The translations under genes were made by a program, and so were the position numbers. Shown here one piece after another: positions 3,035 to 34,842 of a stretch of 64,000 nt of DNA. The notes under the pieces were generated by a model. That model did not search any database and had not been told where the DNA came from. It was given only the letters and a program-made list of their open reading frames with translations. The stretch spans positions 1 through 64,000 of the forward strand of contig NZ_RYFD01000016.1 in the NCBI RefSeq assembly GCF_004138135.1. Direction: 5' to 3'. The stretch is from Candidatus Oscillochloris fontis. Its GTDB lineage: Bacteria; Chloroflexota; Chloroflexia; Chloroflexales; Chloroflexaceae. Position 1 is the stretch's first letter; the number at the start of each line of letters is the position of its first letter.

Positions 3035-4330
3035 TCAGGAATATACCCTCACCCTCCCCGTCATCAACTCCTCCAGCAGCGCCCGGAACAGTTCCTCGTG
3101 CAGCGCCGTCTCCCGTTCCAGTCCCGCAATCACCGCGTCGCAAGCCCGTAGGATTTCTGCGACCTCGCGCTGCTCGGCAAGGGGTGGGATGGGTATCGCC
3201 AGCGTGGACAGCTTGGATGCACTAATATTCGATTGGCTGACACCTCGTGAAGCCATTCCTTTGAGCCGACATTGCGTAGACGACCAGTTGAGGTAGTAAT
3301 TGAGAAAAGCAGGTTCAGCCTTCTCGTAGTCAGGTATGACACGGACAAGATATGAAGCGAACACGTAGTCGCCATCAATATCGAACATACCTGTACGACC
3401 AACATGCTCAATGCTATTTGTCCGGTTGAATAGCAAGTCTCCTTTTGCGAGGCGATATTGGGCAAATGTTGCGGATTCGAGATTAATAAATTGAAGATCC
3501 TCAGGAACAACCTGTCCACCAGTTAGGTTGTTCATACGCAGTATGGGGTAGCTCCCGGCGACCTCGCCACGAATCGACAAGCCATATTGTGTCCCTTGAA
3601 TTGCTTCACCGAGCTTCACCACCTCCCACCCCTCCGGCACCTCGCCAATCTCGGTCATCTTCGTTGGTGCGCCGCGTGTCCCTTTGGTAAAGAGCGCCTG
3701 CATCAGCGCGGCCTTACGCTCACGCTCTAGCTCTGCCGCACGCCGTCGGGTTTGTGCCGCCGCCTGCGCCGACCGCAGCGCCGCCGCGATGGTGCGCTGC
3801 TCGGCGAGGGGGGGGAGGGGAATATAGGTCGCTTTATATTCCTCGAAAGATAGATTGCGGATGCCCGTCGTTCGACGCTGGAGCATTTCGGTCTGACCTG
3901 AGATATGAAAGTAAAACAAGAACGCATGCAAATACTCTGGCTCTATCGCTATTCGGTCTATGACACGTAGGCGTGAAGTGAAATTACTGAAACAATACTC
4001 ACCTTCTCGAAGATCAAAGAAGGCTACACGTCCAACTGGCTGTTTCGGGCCTCCACCTGATCGCTCAATAATGATGTCTCCCCATAGGAGACGCTTACGT
4101 AAAAGCTGACGTGATTCGATCTCTATGAGCGCAACGTCTGACATATCCAAATTGCCATTGTCTGAAAAATTGGTATTTCGGACAACAGCACACTGAACCA
4201 AAGGCTCTTTCTTTCCTGTCCAGATGCCGTTTTCAAAGGCAAAGAACTTTTCATCATTAAGTTGCACCGTTCGCCACCCATCGGGCAGATAGTCAATCTC
4301 GCTCTGATTAAGTACTAGGTCAGCAGTCAT
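3035..4330 (-). CDS. hsdS: type I restriction-modification specificity subunit HsdS
   Basis: 431 residues with the classic two-half layout: a first target-recognition domain (about 15-175), a conserved helical spacer opened by PLPPLAEQRTIAAALRSA, a second recognition domain (about 230-385), and a second near-identical helical segment PIPPLAEQREVAEILRACD near the C-terminus. The two halves would each read one part of a bipartite DNA target. It directs HsdM to methylate that sequence. The gene lies 52 bp upstream of the OLD nuclease and is separated from hsdM by about 320 bp holding a small gene on the other strand. No hsdR is present in this window. Confidence 0.95.
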   Translation of the reverse strand: MTADLVLNQSEIDYLPDGWRTVQLNDEKFFAFENGIWTGKKEPLVQCAVVRNTNFSDNGNLDMSDVALIEIESRQLLRKRLLWGDIIIERSGGGPKQPVGRVAFFDLREGEYCFSNFTSRLRVIDRIAIEPEYLHAFLFYFHISGQTEMLQRRTTGIRNLSFEEYKATYIPLPPLAEQRTIAAALRSAQAAAQTRRRAAELERERKAALMQALFTKGTRGAPTKMTEIGEVPEGWEVVKLGEAIQGTQYGLSIRGEVAGSYPILRMNNLTGGQVVPEDLQFINLESATFAQYRLAKGDLLFNRTNSIEHVGRTGMFDIDGDYVFASYLVRVIPDYEKAEPAFLNYYLNWSSTQCRLKGMASRGVSQSNISASKLSTLAIPIPPLAEQREVAEILRACDAVIAGLERETALHEELFRALLEELMTGRVRVYS

Positions 4331-29490: not shown

Positions 29491-30032
29491 CACCCCACCT
29501 CCCTGATCATCGCGATCTCATCACACAACTCCTGCTTGAAACAGGTCTTGCAATCCTGCCAGATCTTGTGTGGCAAGTGGATCTTGGGGATTTCGTGGAA
29601 GCCCATGTGGCTGAAGAAGCCGACCTGGAGCGTGAGGGCGAAGAGGGTTGGGATGCCCAACTCCTGCGCTTCATCAATCAGTGGCTCTACCAGATGCCGC
29701 CCCAGCCCCTTGCCCTGAAAGTCCGGGTGTACCGCCACACTCACTACTTCGGCCATGTCGGCCCAGGTGATATTCAACCCCGCACAACCCACCACCTCAC
29801 CATCAGCAACCGCAACGTTCAGCGAACGCACGCGGTTGTAGAGTTGATCCATCGTTTTGGGCAGCATGTCACCACGCGCCGCATAGTAGTTGATGATCTC
29901 ATAGAGACGAGGCACATCGCGGACATGGGCACGGCGCACGATCAACTCGGCGTCGGGCCGCGCATGCAGCTTGGGGAGCGAGATGGGTGGGTTGTAGATC
30001 GGGGTGAGTGGACTCATGGCGGTGGCTTTCAT
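29490..30032 (-). CDS. short N-acetylglutamate-synthase-type GNAT acetyltransferase
   Basis: 180 residues from ATG 30032, overlapping the argH stop (ATGA). A GNAT fold with VSVAVHPDFQGKGLGRHLVEPLI (acetyl-CoA loop) and a C-terminal Cys cluster IWQDCKTCFKQELCDEIAM. A like Cys pattern is found in the NAGS domain fused to ArgH in marine ArgH(A) proteins. Position as last gene of the arg operon supports acetylation of glutamate. The stand-alone short NAGS form is known in several phyla; activity is inferred. It lacks the amino-acid-kinase domain of classical ArgA. Confidence 0.8.
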   Translation of the reverse strand: MKATAMSPLTPIYNPPISLPKLHARPDAELIVRRAHVRDVPRLYEIINYYAARGDMLPKTMDQLYNRVRSLNVAVADGEVVGCAGLNITWADMAEVVSVAVHPDFQGKGLGRHLVEPLIDEAQELGIPTLFALTLQVGFFSHMGFHEIPKIHLPHKIWQDCKTCFKQELCDEIAMIREVG

Positions 30033-31411
30033 TCTTGGGTGAGCAGATCGCGCCAGCGTGCGCATTGCTCAGCGACCCGCTGCGGTGCGGTGCCGCCGAG
30101 GCTCTCTTTGCGACTGACGCTGCGGCTGAAGTCGAAGATTGCGTAGACGTGCTCATCGAAGTTGGGTTGGACTGCCTGGTATTCGCTCAGCGGCAGCTCG
30201 CGCAGCGGCTTGCCCAGTTCGATACTGCGCCGTACTAGCCGCCCGGACTTGGCGTGTGCTTCGCGGAAGGGTACCCCCAACCGCACCAACTCATCGGCGA
30301 GGTCGGTGGCCAGCATGGCGTCATCGAGGGCGGCCCGCATGCGCTCCGGGTTGGCCTCCATCGTCTGCACCACGGCGGCGGCCACGCGCAGGCCCAGATC
30401 GAGCGTGTCGAGGCTGTCAAAGAATGGCTCTTTGTCCTCTTGCAGATCCTTGTTGTAGGTGGTGGGTAGCCCCTTCAGCGTGGTGAGCAGGCCCACCAAG
30501 TTGCCGATCAGCCGCCCGCTCTTGCCGCGCAGCAACTCCATACTATCGGGGTTCTTCTTCTGCGGCATGAGGCTGGAGCCGGTACTGTAGGCATCGGCCA
30601 GTTCGACAAAGCCAAACTCGGCACTGCTATACAGCACCAGATCTTCGGCCAAGCGGCTCAGGTGAATGCCGGTCAGCGCAAAGCCGAAGAGCAACTCGGC
30701 CACAAAGTCGCGGTCGGAGACGGCATCGAGCGAGTTGCCCGCCACAGCATCGAACTCATCGAGCAGTTCGGTGAGGCGTTCGCGTTCCACCCCCAACGAA
30801 TTGCCCGCCAGTGCGCCCGCACCGAGCGGCAGAGTACGGGCGCGGGCGGTAGCGTCGGCGATGCGCTGGCGGTCGCGCTCGATCATCTCCACAAATGCCA
30901 GACACCAGTGGCCAAAGGTGATCGGCTGGGCGCGTTGCAGATGGGTATAGCCCGGCATGACCGTGGCGGTGTGGCGTTCGGCCTGTTCGAGCAACGCCAC
31001 CTGCAAGCCCATGAGGCGCTCGTCAATCATCCGGGCGGCCCCAATCGCAAAGAGGCGCATATCGGTCGCCACCTGATCGTTGCGCGAACGCCCGGTGTGC
31101 AGCTTGAGCGCCACTTCTCCCACCAGTTCACCCAGGCGGCGCTCGACAGCGGTATGGATGTCCTCGTCGCTTGGCTTGGCCTCGAAGCGCCCATCGGCAA
31201 ACTCGCGCCGCACCAACTCCAGCCCCTGGACCAACTGCTCCTGCTCATCACTCGTGATCAAGCCCGCCTCGGCCAGCGCACTGGCCCAGGCGATGCTGCC
31301 ACTAATATCACAGGCAGCCAGGCGCACATCAAAGCGGAATGAATCGTTATAGAGCGACATCTCTGCCGCAGTCGGGGCACTAAAGCGCCCGCCCCAAAGT
31401 TTATGCTCCAT
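30029..31411 (-). CDS. argH: argininosuccinate lyase
   Basis: 460 residues. Cleaves argininosuccinate to arginine and fumarate. Start HKLWGGRFSAPTAAEM; KLHTGRSRNDQVATDMRLF, the catalytic TVMPGYTHLQRAQP and the flexible signature GSSLMPQKKNPDSMELLRGK are all present. Fourth gene of the operon, 15 bp after argJ; its stop overlaps the start of the acetyltransferase. Confidence 0.98.
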   Translation of the reverse strand: MEHKLWGGRFSAPTAAEMSLYNDSFRFDVRLAACDISGSIAWASALAEAGLITSDEQEQLVQGLELVRREFADGRFEAKPSDEDIHTAVERRLGELVGEVALKLHTGRSRNDQVATDMRLFAIGAARMIDERLMGLQVALLEQAERHTATVMPGYTHLQRAQPITFGHWCLAFVEMIERDRQRIADATARARTLPLGAGALAGNSLGVERERLTELLDEFDAVAGNSLDAVSDRDFVAELLFGFALTGIHLSRLAEDLVLYSSAEFGFVELADAYSTGSSLMPQKKNPDSMELLRGKSGRLIGNLVGLLTTLKGLPTTYNKDLQEDKEPFFDSLDTLDLGLRVAAAVVQTMEANPERMRAALDDAMLATDLADELVRLGVPFREAHAKSGRLVRRSIELGKPLRELPLSEYQAVQPNFDEHVYAIFDFSRSVSRKESLGGTAPQRVAEQCARWRDLLTQE

Positions 31412-31426
31412 GGTGTAGCAACCCTA

Positions 31427-32650
31427 TTAGGTGCGGTATTCCGCATTGATACGCACATAATCCAAGGAAAAATCGCACGTCCACACCGTCGCCGCGCCAT
31501 CGCCCAGACCCAGATCGGCATCAATCGCAATCTCGGCCACATTCAGCAGATCGCTGGCTGCGCACTCATCGAAGGGCAGCGGCAACCCGGCTTCCAAGAC
31601 GCGCATCCCACCGAACGAGAGCAGCACCCGGTCGGGGTCAACCGTCGCCCCGGAGTAGCCAATCGCACACAAGACCCGGCCCCAGTTGGGATCGGCGCCA
31701 TAGAGCGCGGTCTTGACCAGCGGACTCTTGGCGATGGTCATGGCGGCCAGTTTAGCATCGGCATTGCTGGTGGCCCCGCGCACGGTGATGGTGACAAAGC
31801 GGGTGGCCCCTTCGCCATCGCGCACGACGGCCTGGGCCAGATGCTGACAGATCGCGGTCAATCCGGCAAAGAAGGCCGCTCCATCGGGGCTATCGAGGTC
31901 ACTGATCTCCGGGTTACCCGCTGCTCCATTGGCCATAACCAGTAGCGTATCATTGGTACTCGTGTCGCCATCAATACTGATACTATTGAAACTGAGGTCG
32001 GCGGCGCGGCGCAGGGCGGTATCGAGGCATGCCGGCGTGATCGCGGCATCACTCGTGATCGTGGCCAGCAGCGTGGCCATATTGGGATGGATCATCCCCG
32101 CGCCCTTGCTCATCCCCCCCAGGGTGATGCTGCTACCAGAGGGCAACGCCACCTGCACCGCGCAGTACTTGGGCTTCGTGTCGGTGGTCATGATCGCCCG
32201 CGCCGCCGCCGGGCCATGCGCCGCATCCAGCCCCTGCGCCGCCACACCGATTCCGTTCAGGATCTTCGCCACTGGCACCGGTACGCCAATGGTTCCGGTT
32301 GACATCACAAAGACCGAATCCTCAGGCAGACCGAGGGCGGCTTCGGTGGCACGCACCATCGCCAACGCGGCCGCATCACCATCAGAGCCAGTGCAGGCAT
32401 TGGCGTTGCCCGCATTGATCACCACCGCCCGCAGGCTACTGGCACTACGCTGCATCAGCGCCATATCGTAGCGTACCGGAGCCGCCTTGACCAGATTGGT
32501 GGTAAAGATCGCCGCCGCGCTACAGGCACGCTCACTCACCACCAGCGCCAGGTCATCACGATCCCGGTACTTAATGCCACACGCCGTCGTTGCCGCCGCC
32601 CACCCCGCCGGAGAAGCCGGGTGGCCATCTTCTACAAACGTGATCGTCAT
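31427..32650 (-). CDS. argJ: glutamate N-acetyltransferase / amino-acid N-acetyltransferase
   Basis: 407 residues. Transfers acetyl from N-acetylornithine to glutamate (and, if bifunctional, from acetyl-CoA). Autoprocessing motif GGMSKGAGMIHPNMATLLA; cleavage before Thr193 would give alpha and beta chains. IFTTNLVKAAPVRYD and VINAGNANACTG are further landmarks. It lies 3 bp after the histidine-phosphatase gene. The argA-like gene at the operon end suggests two routes to N-acetylglutamate. Confidence 0.97.
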   Translation of the reverse strand: MTITFVEDGHPASPAGWAAATTACGIKYRDRDDLALVVSERACSAAAIFTTNLVKAAPVRYDMALMQRSASSLRAVVINAGNANACTGSDGDAAALAMVRATEAALGLPEDSVFVMSTGTIGVPVPVAKILNGIGVAAQGLDAAHGPAAARAIMTTDTKPKYCAVQVALPSGSSITLGGMSKGAGMIHPNMATLLATITSDAAITPACLDTALRRAADLSFNSISIDGDTSTNDTLLVMANGAAGNPEISDLDSPDGAAFFAGLTAICQHLAQAVVRDGEGATRFVTITVRGATSNADAKLAAMTIAKSPLVKTALYGADPNWGRVLCAIGYSGATVDPDRVLLSFGGMRVLEAGLPLPFDECAASDLLNVAEIAIDADLGLGDGAATVWTCDFSLDYVRINAEYRT

Positions 32651-32653
32651 AGG

Positions 32654-33352
32654 TTAGGACTCACTTGATCGCAAATTTGCTGGAGGCGGATCTTCCCAAC
32701 GCACCGCCTCTTTGACTTCGATACCGTGGAGGTGTTCAGTATCGTTATAGATATTGAGCCGCCAGAGACCACGACGGCGACGATTGACATATTCCCAGTG
32801 GGTAAGACTGGTGTTGCGGGTATGGAAATCGGTGGGAGGGAGCACCATACTGGGCATACGGAAGAAGTGGATGAAGGCGGCATCAATCACCCCGCCGTGG
32901 CAAACGATCACGATGGTTTTGCCCGCATGCTCTTCGGTAATACGGGCAAGCGCCCGCGCCACCCGCAGCGAGAACGTGCCCCAACTATCCCCATTGGGGG
33001 CAATCGGGCGCAGCGGGTAGGTATCGAAATCGGGGTGGCCGAACTTCTCCCACGCCTCGTTGGTGGTCATACCATCAGCATCACCCATGTTCATCTCTTG
33101 CACCTCATCATCAAAGATGATCGGCAAGCCAAACGCGGGTTGAATGATCTCAGCGGTTTCACGCGCACGCGGCATGGTACTAGCGATCAACACATCGGGA
33201 ACGATCTCGCGGGTGCGTATGAGGCGATCCCGCAGCCGCTCAGCCTGCTTGCGGCCAAGCTCGGTCAGGCCGGTGTCACCGATCATCCCTGGGATGATCG
33301 GTTTGACATTCGTCACTGCCTCGCCGTGCCGGATGAGATAGAGATGGGTCAT
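32654..33352 (-). CDS. histidine phosphatase (phosphoglycerate-mutase-like)
   Basis: 232 residues from ATG 33352. Catalytic LIRHGEAVTN at the N-terminus (phospho-His in RHG) and the second His in IVCHGGVIDA. The C-terminus has a Trp/Arg-rich stretch (WEYVNRRRRGLWRLNIYND). It could be a cofactor-dependent phosphoglycerate mutase or a phosphatase on a small substrate. It sits inside the arg operon between argG and argJ, 3 bp from argJ. A role in arginine synthesis is not known for the family. The palindrome at 33372 separates it from argG. Confidence 0.85.
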   Translation of the reverse strand: MTHLYLIRHGEAVTNVKPIIPGMIGDTGLTELGRKQAERLRDRLIRTREIVPDVLIASTMPRARETAEIIQPAFGLPIIFDDEVQEMNMGDADGMTTNEAWEKFGHPDFDTYPLRPIAPNGDSWGTFSLRVARALARITEEHAGKTIVIVCHGGVIDAAFIHFFRMPSMVLPPTDFHTRNTSLTHWEYVNRRRRGLWRLNIYNDTEHLHGIEVKEAVRWEDPPPANLRSSES

Positions 33353-33371
33353 GGTGGTTGATGTTTCTTTA

Positions 33372-33414
33372 TTTTGGTGGTGTTGGGCGGCAAAGCCGCC
33401 CAACACCACCAAAA
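33372..33414. repeat. 43-bp perfect palindrome within the arg operon
   Basis: 20-bp arms TTTTGGTGGTGTTGGGCGGC with loop AAA, in the 70-bp gap between argG and the phosphatase gene. It could attenuate or stabilise the operon message. Confidence 0.85.
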
Positions 33415-33422
33415 AACAGGGC

Positions 33423-34625
33423 TTACTTCAAAAATGCCTGCACCTTCATACTCAAACCATAGAGCCGAATGAACGCCTCGGCATCCTTCTGATTGTAGAC
33501 CATGTCGGGGCCGAAGGTGGCCAGATCCTCGCGGTAGAGCGAGAAGGGCGAGCGCCGCCCGACCACAATCGCATTGCCCTTGTAGAGCTTGAAGCGCACC
33601 TCGCCGGTCATATTCTCCTGAGTCGAGCGCACAAAGGCGTCATAGTGCTCACGGATGGGGGTGAACCAGCGCCCGTTATAGACCAGATCGGCATAGTCGA
33701 GCGCGATGCGATCCTTGGCCCGCATCGTCTCTTTGTCCAGCACGATGCTCTCTAGCTCGCGGTGCGCGGTGTAGAGCAGCGTCCCGCCGGGGGTCTCATA
33801 GACGCCGTGGCTCTTCATACCCACCAGGCGGTTCTCGACCAGATCAATCCGCCCGATGCCATGCTTGCCACCGATGCGGTTCAGTTCGTCCATGAGTGGC
33901 ACGAGGCCCAGTTCCTGGCCGTTCACGGCGGTGGGCACACCCTTGACAAAGGTGATCGTCAACTCTTCGGGGGTATCCGGGGCATTCTCCGGGCTGACCG
34001 AGATCATGAACATGCCCTCTTCCGGCTCATTCCATGGATCTTCGAGGATACCACCCTCGTGGCTCAGATGCCACAGATTGCGGTCGCGGCTATAGATCTT
34101 CTCGGCAGTCGCCGTGACGGGCACGTTATACTCGGCGGCATAATCGAGGGCATCCTGGCGACTCTTGATTGACCATTCGCGCCACGGGGCGATGATCTTC
34201 AGGCGCGGGTTAAGGGCGAAGAAGGTGAGTTCAAAGCGCACCTGATCGTTACCCTTGCCGGTAGCACCGTGGCACACCGCATCAGCCCCTTCCTCCTCGG
34301 CGATGAGTACCTGGTGGCGGGCGATGATCGGGCGCGCAAACGAGGTGCCGAGGAGGTACTTGCGCTCATAGATCGCCCCGGCCTGCAACGTCGGCAGAAT
34401 ATAGTCGCGCATAAACTCTTCACGCAGATCGCGCACGATCAGCTTGCTGGCCCCAGAGGCGAGCGCCTTCTCCTCCAGCCCCTCCAGTTCCTCGGCCTGG
34501 CCCAAGTCGGCACAGAAACAGATCACCTCACAGCCATAATTCTCGCGCAGCCAAGGCACAATCACCGACGTATCCAGACCACCCGAATAGGCCAATACAG
34601 CCTTCTTGACATCGCCCTTTGCCAT
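33423..34625 (-). CDS. argG: argininosuccinate synthase
   Basis: 400 residues. Joins citrulline and aspartate with ATP. N-type ATP loop [33 protein letters not shown] and [14 protein letters not shown] are family landmarks. ATG 34625 follows an AGGAGAG-type RBS. First structural gene of the arg operon, placed about 50 bp after an intrinsic terminator and an arginine-rich leader ORF, so its transcription is probably controlled by attenuation. Confidence 0.98.
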
Positions 34626-34677
34626 GATCCAACTCTCCTGTTGTTATCCGTAGCGTATCGAAAAAATCGCACAAAAG

Positions 34678-34708
34678 AAGCCAGCTTGCGCTCTGGCAAT
34701 GCTGGCTT
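34678..34708 (-). terminator. attenuator terminator upstream of argG
   Basis: Minus strand: AAGCCAGC (34708-34701) pairs with GCTGGCTT (34685-34678), extended inside by TTGC/GCAA around a 6-nt loop, one bulge, 12 paired bases. CTTTT and then a TTTTTT run follow. It lies between the leader ORF and argG, so it must be bypassed for argG to be expressed. Confidence 0.9.
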
Positions 34709-34734
34709 GGGAACCTCACGGTGGGCAAGCGCGA

Positions 34735-34812
34735 CTAGCCAGGGCGGGTGGCTGGCTGGGGACGACGCTGACGACGGCGCTTCTGCTGCGACACGTTTTG
34801 GTCCTTGATCAT
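34735..34812 (-). CDS. arginine-rich leader peptide of the arg operon
   Basis: A 25-codon frame starts with ATG at 34812 (AGGAAG about 8 bases upstream) and ends with TAG at 34735. Residues 11-17 are Lys-Arg-Arg-Arg-Gln-Arg-Arg, and another Arg is at 23, so 6 of 25 codons are arginine. The RNA just after the RRQRR block holds AGCCAG (34757-34752), which can pair with CTGGCT (34742-34737) spanning the stop codon. That same CTGGCT can pair instead with the 5' arm of the terminator (34707-34702). This is the standard 1:2, 2:3, 3:4 layout of ribosome-mediated attenuation. Stalling at Arg codons would free the antiterminator and switch on argG. Confidence 0.85.
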   Translation of the reverse strand: MIKDQNVSQQKRRRQRRPQPATRPG

Positions 34813-34833
34813 CGCGTATTGCTTCCTGGCGAG

Positions 34834-34842
34834 AGTATACCA
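34834..34842 (-). promoter_or_regulatory. arg operon extended -10 promoter
   Basis: TGG-TATACT on the minus strand (-10 at 34834-34839), giving a transcript start about 15 nt before the leader ATG. No good -35 seen. Confidence 0.6.

Follow-up and report, generated by a model that had tools for sequence, protein, structure and literature searches.

A probable ribosome-mediated attenuator with arginine control codons ahead of argG in Chloroflexota, and its lysine-codon relatives

The arg genes are usually under the control of ArgR/AhrC. In eukaryotes, the fungal arginine attenuator peptide acts on translation through nascent-peptide arrest with free arginine. Among leaders of the trp/his type, classical attenuators have been reported for the Trp, His, Phe, Thr, Leu and Ilv operons (PMC1183508). 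As of 2010, leader-peptide systems were thought to be limited to Proteobacteria and Actinobacteria, until a single His case from Firmicutes was added (PMC2965389); His leaders in Firmicutes are now on record in two papers (PMC2965389, PMC9413887). Arginine is sensed through ribosome pausing at leader-ORF Arg codons in ORF34 of Salmonella speF, whose control of ornithine decarboxylase involves Rho, RNase G and access to the ribosome-binding site, with ornithine as a further signal (PMC6386406).

We analysed a 64,000-nucleotide stretch of DNA from Candidatus Oscillochloris fontis (the window), in which the region from 34842 to 34672 on the minus strand, as read from the sequence, forms a leader ahead of argG. 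This leader heads an operon of tightly spaced genes on the same strand, in the order argG, phosphatase, argJ and argH. We assign a probability of roughly 0.9 to the reading that it is a ribosome-mediated, trp/his-type attenuator that is specific for Arg and controls these four genes. With the enterobacterial trp, his, leu, thr, ilv and phe leaders it has in common a promoter, a short ORF containing codons for the amino acid that the pathway makes, an intrinsic terminator, alternative 1:2, 2:3 and 3:4 structures, and a stop codon at segment 2. Unlike those leaders, it appears Arg-specific, occurs in Chloroflexota, lacks sequence similarity to them (there was no Rfam match at the gathering threshold and nothing meaningful at permissive thresholds), and is built on a scaffold common to Lys-codon and apparently Gln-codon leaders. 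It resembles speF ORF34 of Salmonella and E. coli in the predicted sensing of arginine by ribosome pausing at leader Arg codons but differs in heading an arg biosynthetic operon and in having an intrinsic terminator; with the fungal peptide it shares a short upstream ORF that would regulate an arginine gene. ArgR/AhrC places the same genes under arginine control but as a DNA-binding repressor, for which searches with positive controls returned no match in the 41 genomes of the family (PF01316) or in the 158 genomes of the class (PF02863).

On the minus strand, the elements follow one another in the order TGGTATACT, leader ORF, GCTTG, AAGCCAGC, GCCAG, GCTGGCTT, T-run and argG, which starts at 34625 (Table 1). 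The leader ORF runs from an ATG at 34812 to a TAG at 34737-34735 and comprises 25 codons, six of them for Arg, five of which fall within KRRRQRR. A GTG at 34794 is a possible alternative start that would give a 19-codon ORF; it has a better Shine-Dalgarno sequence (AAGGA) than the ATG and is found in the closest relatives (L116 and L124). A Shine-Dalgarno sequence is plausible for either start, and several relatives have no strong one. Segment 1 lies 5-10 nt 3' of the final Arg codon (34764-34762) of the block, and the stop codon is at the end of segment 2. These positions fit the trp/his-type geometry that had been proposed in the preliminary description, with segment 1 masked at the Arg codons and segment 2 at the stop; the 25-codon ORF, its six Arg codons and the extended -10 element that the same description listed are likewise present. 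Of the 35 Arg leaders, 34 have the -10-like element, TGNTATACT in nearly all cases, as do 26 of the 28 Lys leaders.

Table 1. Features of the predicted arginine attenuator and its operon (window coordinates)
Feature	Position	Strand	Basis
Extended -10 promoter element TGGTATACT	34834-34842	minus	Sequence; kept in relatives
Leader ORF MIKDQNVSQQKRRRQRRPQPATRPG-stop	34735-34812	minus	Sequence; Arg block and QPA..PG-stop end kept in relatives
Control codons Arg Arg Arg Gln Arg Arg	34762-34779	minus	Sequence; frame-specific Arg enrichment in relatives
Segment 1, AGCCAG, partner of segment 2	34752-34757	minus	1:2 pairing in alignment
Segment 2: CTGGCT 34742-34737 (overlaps stop codon) and GCTTG 34730-34726	34726-34742	minus	Pairing in alignments
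Segment 3 (antiterminator): CAAGC 34709-34705 with GCTTG; GCCAG 34697-34693 with CTGGC	34693-34709	minus	Pairing in alignments
Intrinsic terminator 3:4, AAGCCAGC 34708-34701 with GCTGGCTT 34685-34678	34678-34708	minus	Alignment pairing
Terminator U tract TTCTTTTG	34672-34679	minus	Sequence
argG, argininosuccinate synthase	33423-34625	minus	NF001770, 612 bits (cut-off 334)
Histidine phosphatase superfamily gene	32654-33412	minus	PF00300
argJ	31427-32650	minus	PF01960, 491 bits; NF003802 above cut-off
argH, argininosuccinate lyase	30029-31411	minus	TIGR00838, 591 bits (cut-off 279.5)

An argG of the same type (76-100% identity) is present in 25 of the 41 family genomes, and 19 of these 25 genes are preceded by the leader. 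Most of the six that lack it (L016, L018, L020, L023, L024 and L025) follow closely after a tRNA-Ala gene and a hairpin. The covariance model trained on the 19 argG leaders also finds the leader in genomes outside the model that carry a different argG (34% identity) elsewhere, and family genomes that lack argG at the locus retain the leader ahead of phosphatase-argJ. The Arg leader heads arg genes, including phosphatase-argJ loci without argG. At least one such locus, L116, belongs to the window's genus and has an NTP transferase as its divergent upstream gene, as the window does; this shared neighbour suggests that argG alone is missing there and the leader was kept. The window's argG is the only one of its type among the six genomes of the genus that were searched, and the other five have the 34%-identical argG elsewhere. 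The histidine phosphatase superfamily gene recurs between argG and argJ. Near-identical tandem Arg leaders occur on one contig (L177, G010 contig 607), the first (1543-1666) ahead of a gene for a STAS-domain protein and the second (3314-3437) ahead of phosphatase-argJ. Two other families of the order also have leaders ahead of argG (L147 and L149-L151). Outside the order, Arg-rich ORFs ahead of argG amount to weak leads, at 6 of 79 loci in the sense direction versus 2 in the antisense direction. Two Anaerolineae MAGs (L045 and L036) have an Arg-rich short ORF followed by a terminator ahead of argG, for example RIRRRRTQYEFGAFGVRSG-stop; on these weak statistics they are possible further, or convergent, Arg attenuators.

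The alignment of the Arg class comprises 35 loci with 34 distinct peptides, L149-L151 included. Across the 34 distinct leaders, Arg accounts for 29.2% of the last 18 codons in frame versus 6.9% and 10.3% in the other two frames, so that the in-frame conservation named as a test in the preliminary description is borne out. The same text had also named compensatory changes in the stems. In the Arg class, these are seen in the terminator: 93.1% of cells are paired in 3:4, with 11 cells changed on both sides (1/500 shuffles). For 2:3 (CTGGC:GCCAG and GCTTG:CARGC), 91.2% of cells are paired, a value reached in 4 of 500 shuffles, and the CTGGC:GCCAG helix is mismatched in some relatives (L004, L009 and L012-L014). 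The 1:2 helix is paired in 92.9% of cells and shows no excess covariation in the alignment of 33 distinct sequences.

The preliminary description had also set out three mutually exclusive pairings, of which 1:2 and 3:4 stand; their segments, and a second AGCCAG at 34707-34702, all lie where it placed them. Its register for 2:3, with this second AGCCAG as the partner of CTGGCT, has to be revised. That register pairs equally well in the Arg class (92.9%) because GCCAG is present twice in segment 3. In L149-L151, which come from another family, the AGCCAG position reads AAGCAG and pairing is possible only with GCCAGAC. We therefore prefer the shared register, in which GCCAG 34697-34693 and the GCTTG:CAAGC pairing act together, to AGCCAG 34707-34702 alone, and both registers may contribute.

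Weakly detected by the Arg model, 28 Lys-codon leaders with the consensus KQVKRSKKPDARSG-stop are built on a homologous scaffold. They precede genes of lysine biosynthesis, for homocitrate synthase (TIGR02146 above cut-off) or an aconitase-family homoaconitase, and a model of the Lys class finds them across the order. The window's own genome has one, MPIAISKQVKRVKKPAHRSG-stop, ahead of homocitrate synthase (L141, G000 contig 98, 56773-56902). Their last 18 codons contain 20.6% Lys in frame versus about 3% in the other frames, and 9% Arg. Homology between the two classes covers the stop region GTCTGGTTAG, GCTTG and the CCAGAC of segment 3. In shuffle controls that leave relatedness in place, none of 500 shuffles accounts for the changes on both sides in any of the three Lys-class structures, with 28 such cells in 1:2, 16 in 2:3 (88.1% paired) and 26 in 3:4; when the partners are slid by 1-3 columns, pairing falls from 88-94% to no more than 53%. 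These Lys leaders give the strongest support: with compensatory changes in each of the three structures, they indicate that codon identity follows the pathway and that the scaffold is constant. A third class has a Gln-rich control region on the same scaffold (L226, L227, L234, L235, L239, L241, L242, L251, L256 and L257; for example, SQQRGQQQPDRRSG-stop) and is found also in other families of the phylum, with a LysE-type translocator gene downstream in L226, L233, L234, L239, L242 and L256. Low-scoring model hits at L236, L237, L240, L244-L246 and L252-L254 have no leader and were judged to be chance. At L228 and L238, weak hits coincide with terminator-like hairpins ahead of the glutamyl-tRNA synthetase gene gltX, where no clear leader peptide is seen.

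The ends of the Arg leaders bear on the rival that survives best, although it is improbable: the leader peptide and free arginine would together stall the ribosome and so set the RNA structure, as with the fungal arginine attenuator peptide, TnaC or SpeFL. A conserved C-terminal QPAxxPG is what such peptide arrest would lead one to expect, but the bases that encode QPA and PG-stop belong to the paired segments 1 and 2, and this double duty of the sequence accounts for the conservation. A fixed stall motif is missing; Arg is commonest at positions -13 to -8 of the 34 distinct leaders, and the Arg positions vary together with the neighbouring and intervening residues, as expected if codons and not a peptide motif matter. 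In the Lys and Gln classes, moreover, other control residues occupy the same scaffold.

Folding of the window sequence places the isolated helices at -7.6 (1:2), -21.2 (2:3) and -17.8 kcal/mol (3:4). The fold of the whole leader is not significant (z = -1.2), and chance alone would supply about 0.9 terminator-like sites in the region; the fold of this single sequence would not establish the element, whereas the comparative evidence, on which we relied, does. For the naked leader, the most stable fold pairs segment 1 with segment 4 and encloses 2:3, which means that without translation the default is not plainly termination. TTCTTTT follows the terminator arm GCTGGCTT, and the GC-rich hairpin with its T-run is conserved at about 50 nt ahead of the start of argG. 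This hairpin, together with an argG ribosome-binding site that lies outside the helices, argues against translational or Rho-dependent control, in which the ribosome-binding site would be sequestered or leader translation would shield the transcript from Rho. Such control has a precedent in the two Arg codons of Salmonella speF ORF34, which work with Rho and RNase G (PMC6386406), and we regard it as still less probable here than peptide arrest. An ordinary constitutive terminator beside a chance Arg-rich ORF might be suspected, given that Arg is frequent in GC-rich DNA and terminator-like sites arise by chance, but the comparative data (frame-specific Arg conservation, a conserved promoter and segments, and a homologous Lys family) refute it.

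Under ribosome-mediated attenuation, transcription would begin just past the extended -10 element and a ribosome would translate the leader. A shortage of charged tRNA-Arg would cause this ribosome to stall in the RRRQRR block and cover segment 1, and the free segment 2 (CTGGC and GCTTG) would pair with segment 3 (GCCAG and CAAGC) before segment 4 is made, allowing polymerase to enter argG. When Arg is sufficient, the ribosome would reach the stop codon inside segment 2 and mask that segment; segments 3 and 4 would then form the terminator, and transcription would end near 34672. Model folding is consistent with these states. The mean pair probability of 2:3 is 0.99 (window), 0.75 (Arg class) and 0.86 (Lys class) when segment 1 is masked and segment 4 is still to be transcribed; for 3:4, with the ribosome at the stop, the corresponding values are 0.99, 0.88 and 0.90. 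Once segment 4 is present, 3:4 beats 2:3 at equilibrium in the window (0.98 versus 0.01); antitermination must therefore be kinetic. Leader translation, ribosome stalling and Arg-dependent read-through are what we infer from sequence and alignment.

The mechanism belongs to a known class; what appears to be new is that it is specific for Arg, that it stands in for ArgR and that it has sister classes with exchanged codons. An Arg-codon leader in Chloroflexota had been thought undescribed, and our search of the open-licence literature likewise found no description of an Arg or Lys attenuator in this phylum. We favour, with some reserve, the view that one ancestral Chloroflexota attenuator gave rise to Arg-specific, Lys-specific and probably Gln-specific switches by exchange of control codons, with the core GTCTGGNTAG ... 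GCTTG ... CCAGAC kept, and that it acts as a general sensor of tRNA charging where ArgR is absent. The Arg and Lys leaders form a natural codon-swap experiment, which argues for codon identity as the sensor. An Arg attenuator in place of ArgR, together with a homologous Lys version for the aminoadipate pathway, would widen both the amino-acid specificity and the taxonomic range of such systems. The Arg leader probably lets bacteria that lack ArgR sense a shortage of Arg through a stalled ribosome, and attenuators of this kind would account for the regulation of arg and lys genes in a group that does without the standard repressor.
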